Shown here: positions 26,870 to 39,967 of the stretch, piece by piece
Layout of the letters: every line of letters starts with the position of its first letter
Position numbering within the stretch: the stretch's first letter is position 1
DNA from: Halobaculum halobium
Lineage (GTDB): Archaea; Halobacteriota; Halobacteria; Halobacteriales; Haloferacaceae
Assembly: GCF_030127145.1 (NCBI RefSeq)
Contig: NZ_CP126160.1
Location: forward strand, 1 to 64,000
Direction of reading: 5' to 3'
Length of the DNA stretch: 64,000 bases
Notes under the pieces: model-generated
Databases searched by the model: none
What the model was told of the DNA's origin: nothing
The model's input: the letters and a program-made list of their open reading frames with translations, nothing else
Made by a program: the position numbers and the translations under genes

Positions 26870-27031
26870 GCAGTTGAGACAACCTTCTTTTTTGCTGTGT
26901 GCCGGACCGGCCCAGACCCCACCTCCCCACCCTCCGCTCCGTGCTCGCTTCGCTGCGCGCGCAGCCACGACCTCGCTCACCAGTCCAACATTTATCCGGC
27001 AAACCGGGGGAAGGAGTGTGCGACTCGGGCG

Positions 27032-27060
27032 AGTTTATCTGGCCCCCAGAAGGGTGCGGG
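27032..27060 (+). promoter_or_regulatory. Leader stem-loop element 4
   Basis: GTTTAT (27032-27037), then GCCC (27041-27044) with GGGC (27057-27060), loop CCAGAAGGGTGC. It lies 25 bases before the ATG at 27086. Confidence 0.55.
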
Positions 27061-27085
27061 CGTACGAGCGCTCCGGGTAGGACAG

Positions 27086-28048
27086 ATGACGGGTGAACGT
27101 GAGCTAACCTGCGATGTCTGTGGAAAGTCCTTCGACACCAAGGACGCGCTGGGCGGCCACAACAGTAGCCACAGCCGCCGCATCTCAGACACCCAGTTAC
27201 TGGCCGAGGTCGACCGTCTCGTAAACGAGCTGGGCCGTTCCCCAACAGCCACAGAGATGAATGAGCTAGGGGCGTATTCAGCTGGAACGTACAAAAATAG
27301 ATTCGGCAGCTGGGCAGAGGCACTCCAGGAAGCGGGATACGAACCGGTGAAACAACACCGAGTGTCCGAAGACGCACTCCTCGACGAAATTAGACGGCTC
27401 GCAACGGAGGACGGGACGCCGCCAACGGCGGCCGACATGCGCTCGGAGGGCGAGTTCACGGTCACAATCGCGCAGAATCGCTTCGGGAGCTGGAACGAAG
27501 CGCTGGAGGCAGCTGGGTACGACCCCAACCATCGGCATCGGATTTCGGATGCAGAATTACTCGAAGAGATCCATCGGCTTGCCGACGAACTAGGGAAGAT
27601 CCCCACAGCGCAGGAGATGAAAGACCACGGAGAGTTCTCGCATCGACCCTACTTTACTCGCTGGGAGGGCTGGCAAGCTGCGATCCGAGCAGCGGGCTAC
27701 GAACCGGTCGGCCGTCCAGCCGGCCCAGACCATCACAACTGGAAAGAACAGCCAGTCCACGAGTGGCGCGAGTACGGGGACAACTGGAATGAACAACGTC
27801 AGAAAGCGCTTGAACGCGACAACTATACCTGTCAAACGCCGGACTGTGAGTGGACGCAGGAGGCGCATCTCGAGACATTCACGAGAGGACTCCACGTACA
27901 TCATATCCGACCGCTAAGCGCCTTCGGCGACGACGAGAGTGAGGTGGATTTCGAGCGGGCCAACCGGCTGGATAACCTCGTTACGGTGTGTGCCGAACAC
28001 CATCATCTCTGGGAGCGGGCATCACCGCTCCGACTCGATATACGGTGA
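27086..28048 (+). CDS. HNH endonuclease with zinc finger and homing-endonuclease-associated repeats
   Basis: The 320-residue protein is modular. Residues 8-28 form a C2H2 zinc finger (CDVCGKSFDTKDALGGH, then SSH). Three repeats of about 55 residues follow, each with LLxEIxRLAxELGxxPTAxEM, a FGSW or TRWEGW block and AAGYEP, typical of homing-endonuclease-associated DNA-binding repeats. The C-terminal 90 residues are an HNH nuclease: CQTPDCEW, then HVHHIRPLSAFG, N-LDNLVTVC and EHHH. The start at 27086 puts the finger at the N-terminus. The gene has a stem-loop leader. It could be a free-standing homing or defence nuclease cutting a specific site. Confidence 0.85.
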   Translation: MTGERELTCDVCGKSFDTKDALGGHNSSHSRRISDTQLLAEVDRLVNELGRSPTATEMNELGAYSAGTYKNRFGSWAEALQEAGYEPVKQHRVSEDALLDEIRRLATEDGTPPTAADMRSEGEFTVTIAQNRFGSWNEALEAAGYDPNHRHRISDAELLEEIHRLADELGKIPTAQEMKDHGEFSHRPYFTRWEGWQAAIRAAGYEPVGRPAGPDHHNWKEQPVHEWREYGDNWNEQRQKALERDNYTCQTPDCEWTQEAHLETFTRGLHVHHIRPLSAFGDDESEVDFERANRLDNLVTVCAEHHHLWERASPLRLDIR

Positions 28049-31013: not shown

Positions 31014-31463
31014 TTACAGCATTGGTTCGTAGTCAGGGAACACCTGTCCTGCTTTCTGGTTGACGGCGTGCGGCGGTTTTACCGGTTTGTTCTCGCGGGA
31101 TACGTAGTACCGTTCTTCGTCGAGCTTCTGGATATGATAGTCTTCTCCGTCCGCTGCTTCGACCATGACACGTACTTCCTGTTCTTCGACAGTGTCGGAG
31201 GTTCCCGGATTGAGATGATGATCGAATTCAGCCCGGTCGAGGTACGGTTTGATCGTGGCCTGGACGTCTTCGGGGAAGACTCGGCCACTGCTGACCAGTG
31301 TGTATCGTCTACCTCTTGCGTTCCGCATTTCCGTTTCCTGGATGATGATGGCGTGTTCGTAGTCGTCTCTGACTTTCTGCAACTCGTATCCTAGGTTGTC
31401 GTCATCTTCGAGTTCTGAAGGAGCGGTTTTTACGAGTACCGAGTTGATTGTTGCACCGGCCAT
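31014..31463 (-). CDS. Hypothetical protein
   Basis: A 149-residue soluble, charged protein of unknown function. The middle (HAIIIQETEMRNARGRRYTLVSSG) and the C-terminal part (EEQEVRVMVEAADGEDYHI then QKLDEERYYVSRENKPV) look like beta strands with a compact fold. No catalytic motif, zinc ligands or membrane segment are visible. The ATG at 31463 is the only good start. It lies alone between a remnant and the four-helix membrane-protein operon, on the same strand as the latter but 140 bases behind it, so it may be part of that transcript. Confidence 0.6.
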   Translation of the reverse strand: MAGATINSVLVKTAPSELEDDDNLGYELQKVRDDYEHAIIIQETEMRNARGRRYTLVSSGRVFPEDVQATIKPYLDRAEFDHHLNPGTSDTVEEQEVRVMVEAADGEDYHIQKLDEERYYVSRENKPVKPPHAVNQKAGQVFPDYEPML

Positions 31464-31603: not shown

Positions 31604-32158
31604 TCAAATTAGATACTCCAATAGCCCAGTACTCTGTATTATTCCCGGGATAGGATGTAATAGTATCAACGTCAAGGATACAGCGGTCAATTTCAAGCAC
31701 TGGTCCAGTTTCGCCATTTTCTCGTCGTTTCTAGTCCGGTTTCCTTTGAAGAACATCTCCGGGTCATCAGTTTCCTCGTTGCCTGTGATCACCGTGAGGT
31801 AGGATTTGACGAGTTCACGTCGAACCGGTTCCGGCGGATTATCGATGTACTGCAGATAATCTTCTTCATCCAGTCCTGGTCTGTGGTAGTCCCGGACCCA
31901 GAGAGCTGAGATTCCGTTGACCACTGAGATCAGTGCGACCGCCATCGCCGCGTAGTGCAGAATGTTGAGGCTGGAGAAGATACTGACTACGGAGACGATG
32001 ATTGCGTCAACGGTCAGTACGGTACCGATCTTGGATTCGACTGAAGTTCGCCGGTCTGATTCTTCCTGGTATCGGAGCCGGATTTCTTCGAGGGCCAGTT
32101 GAGACAGATCTACATCACTGCTGCCATCTTCTTCGTCGCTGCCCTCGTCGTCGGTCAT
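31604..32158 (-). CDS. Four-helix membrane protein behind three zinc-ribbon microproteins
   Basis: A 184-residue protein with an acidic N-terminus, an amphipathic helix (LALEEIRLRYQEESDRRTSV) leading into two hairpin-like membrane helices (about residues 46-66 and 68-88), a soluble loop, and two weaker hydrophobic segments near the C-terminus (157-180). A long charged helix entering a first pair of membrane helices is also seen in membrane effectors of nucleotide-signal defence systems such as SLATT-type proteins. This is a resemblance in layout only. Its ATG at 32158 directly follows the stop of the third microprotein gene (TGAATG), so all four genes form one operon. Confidence 0.65.
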   Translation of the reverse strand: MTDDEGSDEEDGSSDVDLSQLALEEIRLRYQEESDRRTSVESKIGTVLTVDAIIVSVVSIFSSLNILHYAAMAVALISVVNGISALWVRDYHRPGLDEEDYLQYIDNPPEPVRRELVKSYLTVITGNEETDDPEMFFKGNRTRNDEKMAKLDQCLKLTAVSLTLILLHPIPGIIQSTGLLEYLI

Positions 32159-32257
32159 TCAAAATTCTCTGCCACACTCATCACAGATGCGGTCTCCCTT
32201 GTTTTTCTTGAGGGTGCTGAAACTTGACTCGTCCTTGCACTTTGGGCATACAGGCAT
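32159..32257 (-). CDS. Zinc-ribbon microprotein 3 (32 residues)
   Basis: Encodes MPVCPKCKDESS, a short variable segment, then ICDECGREF: two CxxC pairs 17 residues apart, enough to hold one zinc ion. It is the third of three tandem genes with the same plan. ATG 32257-32255, stop TGA 32161-32159, immediately followed by the ATG of the membrane-protein gene. At 32 residues it would be missed by normal gene callers. That all three tandem copies keep start, both CxxC pairs and a terminal aromatic residue argues that they are real. The function is unknown. Confidence 0.75.
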   Translation of the reverse strand: MPVCPKCKDESSFSTLKKNKGDRICDECGREF

Positions 32258-32267
32258 GGCTATGTCG

Positions 32268-32378
32268 TTAGAAGGTTTCTCCGCATTCGTCGCAAGTTCG
32301 TTTGTCTTTCTCTTCTCCGTCCCCAAGCTCGGCGCTGTGGGTCAGTGCTCCGTCTTTACAGTCAGGGCACAACGGCAT
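32268..32378 (-). CDS. Zinc-ribbon microprotein 2 (36 residues)
   Basis: Encodes MPLCPDCKDGAL, a charged middle (ELGDGEEKDKR) and TCDECGETF. The two CxxC pairs are 22 residues apart. Start ATG 32378-32376, stop TAA 32270-32268, ten bases before the start of the third copy. It shares MPLCPDC at the N-terminus and CDECGETF at the C-terminus with microprotein 1, while the middle differs in length and sequence. Such proteins could be subunits, adaptors or small regulators for the membrane protein of the same operon. Confidence 0.75.
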   Translation of the reverse strand: MPLCPDCKDGALTHSAELGDGEEKDKRTCDECGETF

Positions 32379-32382
32379 CGTT

Positions 32383-32475
32383 TTAGAACGTCTCTCCGCA
32401 CTCGTCACACACCTGTTCTGCGTTCTGGATCAGGCCTGTCATCGCGTCATCTCGACAATCAGGGCAGAGAGGCAT
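32383..32475 (-). CDS. Zinc-ribbon microprotein 1 (30 residues)
   Basis: Encodes MPLCPDCRDDAM, then TGLIQNAEQV, then CDECGETF. First gene of the operon: ATG 32475-32473, stop TAA 32385-32383, four bases before microprotein 2. A TATA-like CTTATTAA on the minus strand (32504-32511) lies about 30 bases before the ATG, as for a leaderless transcript, so transcription probably begins at this small gene. Independent conservation of the four cysteines in three copies with diverged middles supports translation. Confidence 0.75.
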   Translation of the reverse strand: MPLCPDCRDDAMTGLIQNAEQVCDECGETF

Positions 32476-32484
32476 TCTTGTACC

Positions 32485-32511
32485 GGGTAGTACCCATTTA
32501 CAGTTAATAAG
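32485..32511 (-). promoter_or_regulatory. Promoter of the microprotein operon with palindrome
   Basis: Minus-strand TATA-like CTTATTAA at 32511-32504. Between it and the start codon lies the perfect palindrome GGGTAGTACCC (32485-32495), which could be an operator at the transcription start. Confidence 0.5.
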
Positions 32512-32625
32512 GATTTGGCGGCATCGGTCCCCCGGAAGGGGTTACAGTCCTGCAGAGAGTCTATTGTCCCCTCAATGGGTGAGGGGCTCGCTGTACTGGC
32601 GAGTTCCCGAAACACGGTAAGAACG

Positions 32626-33552
32626 ATGGCAACCAGAGACATCTACGAGAGCGGATTCGACGAAGACGTCCGAACGGAATCGAGTGCGAACCAGTGTCCC
32701 GAGTGCGACGGTCGGGTCACCACGAACGCGGTCGAAACGGTCTGCGAGGACTGTGGCCTGGTCGTCGACGAACAGCGCATCGATCACGGGCCGGAGTGGC
32801 GGGCGTACGACGACGAGGAGCGCGAGCGAACGGGCGCCCCACTTACTGCGGCCCGCCACGATCGCGGCCTGTCGACGGAGATCGGTCGCGGCACCGACGC
32901 GAAGGGGAACGAGATCTCTGGGCAGAAGCGACGGCGACTCGCGCGGATGCGCCGTGAGCAGACTCGCGGTCGCTGGCGGTCGAAAGCGGAACGGAATCTC
33001 GCACACGGACTGGGCGAGGTGCGTCGGTTGGCGAGTGCGCTCGAACTCTCTGATTCGGTCCGCGACCAGGCGTGTCAGCTCTTCCGGAGCGCCCAGAACG
33101 AGGATCTGCTTCGTGGCAGATCCATCGAGGCCATCGCCGCGGCCAGCGTCTACGGGGCCTGCCGGTGCAACGGCCGCTCGCGGTTGGTGGACGACGTCAG
33201 CGAGATGGCCCGCGTCGCGGAGTCACGAGTCACGAACGCGTACAAAACGTTGAACGAGGAGCTGGGCCTCCCCGCTGAGCCCGTCTCCCCCAGCATGTTC
33301 GTGCCGCGCCTCGCCTCGGACCTCGAGTGTCCGGACGAAATCCGACAGCGGGCCCGAGCCCTCGCGGAGCAGGCCGAGGGGCGCGGCGTCACGACGGGCG
33401 TCCATCCGGCCGGGTTCGCAGCGGCCTGCCTCTACAAGGCCGGTCGCGAAGAGGGCCGATGGTTGACGCAATCCGAGGCCGCGGACGTAGCGAACGCCTC
33501 GAAGGCGACTGTTCGGGCACACCGGGATACGTTGGAGGAACGGGTCGCCTGA
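32626..33552 (+). CDS. tfb: Transcription initiation factor TFB
   Basis: A 308-residue archaeal TFB, which recruits RNA polymerase to TBP-bound promoters. Zinc ribbon CPECDG (C24, C27) and CEDCG (C40, C43), B-reader region WRAYDDEERERTG, then two cyclin repeats; SIEAIAAASVYGACR and TGVHPAGFAAACLYKAGR are the cores. The final helix-turn-helix SEAADVANASKATVRAH is intact. ATG 32626 (MATRDIY) is chosen because it gives the normal distance to the zinc ribbon; an upstream ATG at 32515 adds unlike sequence. Haloarchaea carry many TFBs, and an accessory copy may direct transcription of this element's own genes. Confidence 0.92.
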   Translation: MATRDIYESGFDEDVRTESSANQCPECDGRVTTNAVETVCEDCGLVVDEQRIDHGPEWRAYDDEERERTGAPLTAARHDRGLSTEIGRGTDAKGNEISGQKRRRLARMRREQTRGRWRSKAERNLAHGLGEVRRLASALELSDSVRDQACQLFRSAQNEDLLRGRSIEAIAAASVYGACRCNGRSRLVDDVSEMARVAESRVTNAYKTLNEELGLPAEPVSPSMFVPRLASDLECPDEIRQRARALAEQAEGRGVTTGVHPAGFAAACLYKAGREEGRWLTQSEAADVANASKATVRAHRDTLEERVA

Positions 33553-39199: not shown

Positions 39200-39967
39200 T
39201 TAATTAACATTTGCGGCGTCTTTCCACTGGTTCATAATGTCGTTGCTAAGACGGCCAGAGTCGTACTGGAAGCGTTTCCCCGTTTGGACGCCTTCGGCGA
39301 CCTCTTTTACGTCATCGGCATAATCCGGGTCCCAGCCTTTTTCAGCGACTAACCAGGCTCTGATTGCTTCAGGATCGAAGCTGATGCCGTTGCTATGGAG
39401 GGTTTTGAAGATCTCGATACAGGTAGCACGATCTGACGAATGCGTGATCCCAGTCGAGGTGTTGACCAATGCATCGAGCGTGTCGACAGCTTCCTTGGCG
39501 ACCGGATTATCGATTTCTGGTGCATCGCCACTCGCATCTGATTGGAGTGCTGACGCGCCCCAGGTATCGATCCAGAACTGGACGGTGTCCTTCGACCAAG
39601 GCACGACGAGCACATCGGTCACACCATACATTCCGTCAATCTTGTCCAGCAGGTCTTTGTCTGGGTAGATAGCAAGGACAGGACCGCTTTGCCACCCCGA
39701 TGGATCAATCCGTTTCGTCATCAGCTGGATCTCTGCTTCACCGACGCCGACCGGCTTCTTTTTATTCAACGCCTTTGCTGCCTGGTCACCGATCACAGTA
39801 GATACGACACCGTCCAGCTGCTTTTTCGTGTTTACTGCCAAGACAGCATCTCGTTTCTCTTCATGCTGCTCACCGAGCTGTTGCACCCACGCGAAGGCCA
39901 GTTCGACAGCCTCCTCATTTGGCCCCTCGGAATCGATGAACCAAGATGTCCTGTCGTTTTGACTCAT
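39200..39967 (-). CDS. Hypothetical protein
   Basis: A 255-residue soluble, acidic protein. The first 150 residues look like an alpha/beta domain (AVLAVNTKKQLDGVVSTVIG, then PVLAIYPDKDLLDKIDG and VLVVPWSKDTVQFW). After a linker, the C-terminal 90 residues are helical and contain SSDRATCIEIFKTLHSNG and FDPEAIRAWLVAEKGWDPDY, a compact domain. No known family is recognised. The ATG at 39967 is clear. Composition is A/T-richer than in the nrd operon. The gene is divergent from the winged-helix membrane protein gene at 40074, with which it shares a promoter region. Confidence 0.7.
   Translation of the reverse strand: MSQNDRTSWFIDSEGPNEEAVELAFAWVQQLGEQHEEKRDAVLAVNTKKQLDGVVSTVIGDQAAKALNKKKPVGVGEAEIQLMTKRIDPSGWQSGPVLAIYPDKDLLDKIDGMYGVTDVLVVPWSKDTVQFWIDTWGASALQSDASGDAPEIDNPVAKEAVDTLDALVNTSTGITHSSDRATCIEIFKTLHSNGISFDPEAIRAWLVAEKGWDPDYADDVKEVAEGVQTGKRFQYDSGRLSNDIMNQWKDAANVN

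Follow-up and report, generated by a model that had tools for sequence, protein, structure and literature searches.

In a 64-kb stretch of haloarchaeal DNA (the whole sequence analysed, hereafter the window), three very short open reading frames follow one another on the minus strand and run into a gene for a small membrane protein. This locus raises the question of whether such short frames are genes at all and, if so, what several different copies might do ahead of one membrane protein. The frames (ZR1 to ZR3) and the membrane protein (MP) are arranged as follows:

32475-32383, minus strand: ZR1, 30 aa, MPLCPDCRDDAMTGLIQNAEQVCDECGETF
32378-32268, minus strand: ZR2, 36 aa, MPLCPDCKDGALTHSAELGDGEEKDKRTCDECGETF
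32257-32159, minus strand: ZR3, 32 aa, MPVCPKCKDESSFSTLKKNKGDRICDECGREF, whose stop codon abuts the ATG of MP
31604..32158, minus strand: MP, a 184-aa membrane protein directly after ZR3, distantly PycTM-like

The spacing is 4 bp between ZR1 and ZR2, 10 bp between ZR2 and ZR3, and 0 bp between ZR3 and MP. The window copies share the plan M-P-(L/V)-C-P-x-C ... C-D-E-C-G-x-x-F-stop. The coordinates of three same-plan genes of 30, 36 and 32 codons directly before a membrane gene, as put forward in the original prediction, were thereby confirmed.

Coding Status of the ZR Frames

The window has two occurrences of the core pattern ATG-(P/A)-(L/F)-C-x2-C, both inside the ZR array; none arose in 100 dinucleotide shuffles that served as a chance control. 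Taken jointly, ZR1-3 showed Ka/Ks values of 0.05 to 0.35 against the relatives with enough divergence (Ks up to 0.6). Against the homologous locus L031, the joint Ka was 0.032 and the Ks 0.60, giving a ratio of 0.05, and MP had a ratio of 0.09; against L006, the ratios were 0.08 for ZR1 and 0.22 for ZR2. These values show purifying selection on the ZR ORFs and on MP, and the low Ka/Ks of the three ORFs makes it very probable that the ZRs are translated genes, as originally proposed. Positive selection on ZR2, considered for the comparison with L008 (seven non-synonymous changes and one synonymous change), was rejected because there are too few sites.

The ZRs are cysteine-rich, with a cysteine pattern of the zinc-binding type, and are probably zinc ribbons. 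The model of the 36-aa ZR is poor (pLDDT 68), and a fold search with it gave no useful match; the low-E matches were mostly multi-finger C2H2 proteins aligned to the second knuckle only, and were discarded. Comparison of the ZRs with known Pfam and NCBIfam families returned sub-threshold matches only, and an Rfam scan of the window detected no RNA family. The net charge varies by ZR type, from -7 to +6.

Homologous Loci and Linkage Between the Array and MP

Relatives of MP are located on plasmids of Haloferax alexandrinus, Natrinema versiforme, Natronococcus, Actinarchaeum, and Halorubrum, and also in Natronocalculus. ZR ORFs lie upstream of nearly all of them, in these numbers per locus:

two ZRs: L006
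three ZRs: L007, L008, L010, L034, L036, L038
four ZRs: L011, L015, L035
five ZRs: L037, L039
one ZR, more distant MPs: L017/L025, L040/L062, L054/L063
no ZR, more distant MPs: L042, L043

MPs outside the closest group share 21-37% identity with the window MP, and one to five ZR ORFs still precede homologous MPs that are only 24-36% identical. Across loci, the ZRs measure 30-45 aa, and neighbouring ZR genes either lie 0-10 bp apart or share 1 bp, with a single overlap of 11 bp. The conservation of the cysteines in homologous loci was borne out, since all four cysteines (C4, C7, and the C-terminal pair) are unchanged in every ZR copy aligned (23/23 and 27/27), and the last glycine is likewise invariant in 27/27. 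The public gene tables of the Haloferax, Natrinema, Actinarchaeum, and Halorubrum plasmids, which are known to be incomplete, contain no gene at the ZR positions. Together with the array-MP pairing kept across loci, this agrees with the idea of a conserved operon that had escaped annotation.

A DNA pattern for tandem arrays, composed of the end of one ZR and the start of the next, was searched independently of MP in 391 Halobacteria genomes. True arrays, i.e., those with a stop codon and then an ATG, were present in 13 of them, and all 13 are MP loci (11 confirmed with the MP profile; G314 and G401 seen separately as MP loci). The other matches lack the stop and belong to longer proteins with two zinc ribbons, as checked where a locus had been fetched and judged by eye elsewhere. 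No tandem array was found outside Halobacteria in a 393-genome sample of the phylum, and none of the five viral contigs that matched the single-ZR pattern had an array or an MP. The MP family was matched in 26 of the 391 Halobacteria genomes, about 16 of them convincingly, and in 0 of 10 congeners of the window's genome. Among close family members, the linkage between array and MP is strict in both directions, and the cassette is a conserved, co-occurring module of haloarchaea.

Variant layouts were also observed. In two genomes, the cassette consists of one ZR (41-44 aa), MP, and then a proteasome-like Ntn-hydrolase (L062:5934-7406; L025 4388-5904, minus strand). These hydrolases, of 263 and 273 aa, are 51% identical, and the 263-aa one matches PF00227 with an E value of 1.4e-4. 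In Actinarchaeum (L010:5493-6977), MP is directly followed by a 494-aa protein of no known family that was not found in the other loci examined. In Natronococcus (L009:6001-6333), MP is N-terminally truncated, the array is unrecognisable, and a transposase-like ORF adjoins them.

ZR Types and Mosaic Structure of the Cassette

The middles of the ZRs fall into recurring types, e.g., QK/KK, GGK, AL-D, and A-N. In the clade whose ZRs end in C-x-R-C-G (RCG), the order of the types is kept between loci (p 0.001 vs shuffled order), and the same holds when all loci are pooled (p 0.0005 vs shuffled order). Between the DECG and RCG clades, the collinearity of ZR classes was not significant (p 0.09-0.21), and the claim of ordered classes is thus confined to the RCG clade and the pooled loci. 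The recurring types and their order support the earlier suggestion that the copies represent different subunit types rather than random duplicates.

When the window was compared with Natrinema, the promoter-ZR1-ZR2 block was 93-98% identical, ZR3 78%, and MP 83-90%; the pattern of identity along the cassette was different in the comparison with L056. Window positions 32159-32556 display mosaic identity against L008 and L056, with the promoter-ZR2 block set apart from ZR3-MP. Such mosaicism within the cassette suggests that ZR units have recombined with one another.

Promoter Region

Two candidate signals lie before ZR1:

32504..32510, minus strand: TATA-like box TTATTAA, recognised from the sequence, about 32 nt before the ATG of ZR1
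32485..32495, minus strand: 11-bp palindrome GGGTA-C-TACCC, GGGTACTACCC, between the TATA box and the ATG

Both had been noticed before, and they fared differently. TATA-like boxes precede most homologous arrays at a similar distance, and the position of TTATTAA about 32 nt from the first ATG suggests that the array transcript is probably near-leaderless. The palindrome core, in contrast, is kept only in the nearest relatives (L007 and L008, and partly L031/L006); it is a putative operator, possibly controlling the array.

The Membrane Protein

Hydropathy analysis revealed three TM segments in most MP members. The AlphaFold model of MP (pLDDT 77.7, pTM 0.64) is helical, with an acidic disordered N-terminus, a long helix (18-60), a helix at 66-87, short helices, and a helix at 140-166. 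MP is thus not the four-helix protein initially described, and is predicted to contain three TM helices plus amphipathic helices: helix 18-60 running into TM1, TM2 at 66-87, cytosolic helices, and TM3 at about 157-175. The conserved positions are L23, E25, E33, R36, K43, S78, Y91, P94, Y120, and N140.

A PDB sequence search identified no relative of MP with a solved structure, and Foldseek with the MP model gave nothing at E<=0.001 in PDB or BFVD; the L011 MP is absent from the structure alignment. Comparison with known Pfam and NCBIfam families yielded sub-threshold matches only. The PADLOC PycTM models match 9/17 MP members (best E 1.2e-4), and the PADLOC CBASS 2TM models ("Effector 2TM") weakly match 1-2/17. 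The Pfam PycTM family (PF18967) matches 2/17 members with a best E value of 0.041, and its best scores on MP, about 14-16 bits, are below the curated cut-off of 27.2. These matches make MP weakly PycTM-like, so that its description as effector-like finds backing in the PADLOC models but stays below the Pfam cut-off.

Plasmid Location and Gene Neighbourhood

A second copy of the cassette, 100% identical, is found in the same contig at 139,357-140,557, i.e., 107,857 bp away. It does not represent a duplication, because the contig ends overlap as in a circular assembly: window positions 1-59206 match positions 107858-167061 of the contig (C3) over about 59 kb, in register and with 99.94% identity in the two stretches compared. 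The contig thus represents a circular plasmid of about 107.9 kb whose closure was left unresolved, and the genes in window positions 1-59206 appear twice in the assembly. The GC content is 0.49-0.51 at 28 to 32 kb and about 0.6 in most flanks. A Haloferax plasmid shares a 2.7-kb block with 97% identity, although 0/10 congeners carry the cassette. Serine recombinases are encoded close to the cassette in L010, L011, L057, and L061. The genes around the window cassette include:

26897-28048: HNH-repeat homing-endonuclease-like protein with a C2H2 finger (PF18780, E 7.7e-65), about 3.5 kb downstream of MP
31014..31463, minus strand: 149-aa ORF with no assigned family
32626..33552, plus strand: divergent gene for transcription factor B (TFB; PF00382, E 4.9e-35)
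39200-39967: 255-aa protein with a DUF1889 match (E 5.2e-9)

The low GC content, the mobile surroundings, and the nearby HNH-repeat endonuclease fit well with the A/T-rich nuclease island that had been proposed. The 149-aa ORF, present near the cassette in four close loci only, and the TFB gene, which adjoins it in three loci, were both rejected as core parts, since they are absent from most loci; the former is accessory. The cassette is patchy in distribution, plasmid-borne or near recombinases, and mosaic.

Genes of possible conflict systems are found in some neighbourhoods: a D12 methylase about 3 kb from L061, a SocA/Panacea protein near L060, and Doc- and VapC-type toxins near L007. In a Halorubrum plasmid (L011:719-4351), a PLD/SNF2 helicase (like BrxH/DrmD/HmaA), annotated next to a DUF1156 protein, is located immediately upstream of a four-ZR cassette. 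Such a neighbourhood would suit an accessory, mobile, conflict-related module.

Possible Function of the Cassette

We tentatively favour the view that the microproteins act together as the gate of an effector that disrupts membranes, within a defence or toxin-antitoxin device, which we regard as possible rather than probable, over a regulatory or stress module, a plain toxin-antitoxin pair, and a leaderless halocin. One near-leaderless, translationally coupled operon would make several non-identical ZRs and the three-TM MP, which would be a membrane-disrupting effector of the PycTM/2TM type. The conserved N-terminal E/R/K helix of MP and its Y-N-containing cytosolic helices would receive the signal, and the ZRs would dock on the cytosolic face as a heteromeric gate, keeping MP silent or arming it, with a separate partner or trigger for each ZR class. 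Under infection or some other stress, the gate would change and MP would depolarise the cell, following the logic of abortive infection or of a toxin-antitoxin system. Zinc binding, the ZR-MP interaction, membrane damage by MP, and an output in abortive infection or plasmid maintenance are what we infer. Against this reading, the similarity to PycTM is below every curated cut-off and no Foldseek match at E<=0.001 was obtained with the MP model, genes of defence systems near the cassettes are few and of varied kinds, the model of the 36-aa ZR is poor, and zinc is not bound by some of the C(P)XCG micro-proteins (PMC11241148). A bolder form of it, which we consider doubtful, is a new kind of conflict system that uses up to five distinct ZRs in a set order, instead of a nucleotide second messenger, as a multi-input gate on a PycTM-like effector, each class watching a different trigger.

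It is rather unlikely that the cassette is instead a stress or lifestyle module without any toxin or defence role. In that case, the ZRs would be Brz-like proteins that regulate at the transcriptional or post-transcriptional level, and MP would serve as a sensor in the membrane or as an accessory to a transporter. The bop gene next to Brz is under its control (PMC2253796), one-domain zinc-finger micro-proteins of H. volcanii have effects on biofilm formation, swarming, and adaptation to stress (PMC6562870), and the TFB gene adjoining three cassettes would agree with this role. However, the known proteins that we found described are single genes, not arrays ahead of a membrane gene. Moreover, the strict linkage of array and MP, their patchy distribution, and their mobility fit an accessory rather than a housekeeping function.

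The small upstream genes, their coupled translation, and the plasmid location recall a type II-like toxin-antitoxin system for plasmid maintenance, in which MP would be the toxin and each ZR an antitoxin, the copies giving dosage or cross-protection against related MPs with no viral trigger. The possible operator palindrome over the start region and the exchange of ZR units within cassettes agree with this explanation, but up to five different antitoxin-size genes per toxin would be unusual, and the conservation of ZR classes argues against mere dosage, so that we consider it unlikely. A multi-peptide leaderless halocin cluster, with the 30-45-aa ZRs as secreted peptides and MP as immunity protein, is very unlikely, since, despite a layout that recalls the garvicin KS and aureocin A70 operons and a lanM gene about 3.3 kb downstream of the L010 MP, the ZRs have two CxxC pairs and charges of -7 to +6 and are neither hydrophobic nor cationic amphipathic, no gene for an exporter was noticed in the neighbour lists of the cassettes, and the ZR classes and cysteines are under purifying selection.

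In any event, at least 13 haloarchaeal genomes contain a conserved operon of several sub-45-residue proteins, unlisted in visible annotations and strictly paired with one membrane-protein family. If the ZRs gate MP, as we favour, this operon would be an example of a small multi-peptide switch, amenable to genetics, that acts in the immunity of archaea or in the maintenance of plasmids. Some of the many haloarchaeal zinc-finger micro-proteins, most of them still unexplained, would then gain a partner and a testable function.

Comparison With Known Systems

The operons of multi-peptide leaderless bacteriocins, such as garvicin KS and aureocin A70, consist of tandem short leaderless ORFs followed by a small membrane protein, and their peptides are cationic and amphipathic, without paired CxxC motifs. 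The cassette shares the layout of tandem short leaderless ORFs plus a membrane protein, but the ZRs contain paired CxxC motifs and range widely in net charge. With type II toxin-antitoxin systems, in which a small co-encoded protein neutralises a toxic one, it shares the layout of small genes next to a putative toxin gene.

The weak profile matches of one or two MP members to CBASS 2TM effectors convey a similar idea of a membrane effector; no CD-NTase was recognised among the part of the cassette-neighbour proteins that was scanned with Pfam and PADLOC. MP is closer to PycTM of Pycsar (PF18967; PADLOC PDLC02363-5), whose activation disrupts the membrane (PMC11224242): both are small and membrane-spanning, and the weak profile similarity in 9/17 MP members covers the first TM region. 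Unlike in Pycsar, MP is below the curated PycTM cut-off, there is no pyrimidine cyclase gene, and a ZR array lies upstream. No class III cyclase was found near the cassettes, and PF00211 was present in 1/15 cassette genomes, on another contig (G342:C1, with MP on C3). Without a nucleotide cyclase, the cassette is therefore not Pycsar, although MP may work like PycTM.

The haloarchaeal C(P)XCG zinc-finger micro-proteins (Brz, HVO_0758, HVO_2753) are shorter than 70 aa, have two CxxC(G) motifs, and are widespread and often unannotated (PMC11241148, PMC6562870, PMC2253796). The ZRs are also below 70 aa and have two C(P)XCG-like motifs, the first without the G. They differ in measuring 30-45 aa, in starting with M-P-L-C and stopping just past the second knuckle, and in forming groups of one to five coupled genes tied to one membrane-protein family. 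A tandem multi-microprotein array with a membrane protein is described neither in the family libraries nor in the open-licence papers that the search returned. Thus, the parts of the cassette resemble known kinds, and it is their arrangement, an ordered microprotein array plus a membrane protein, that appears to be new.
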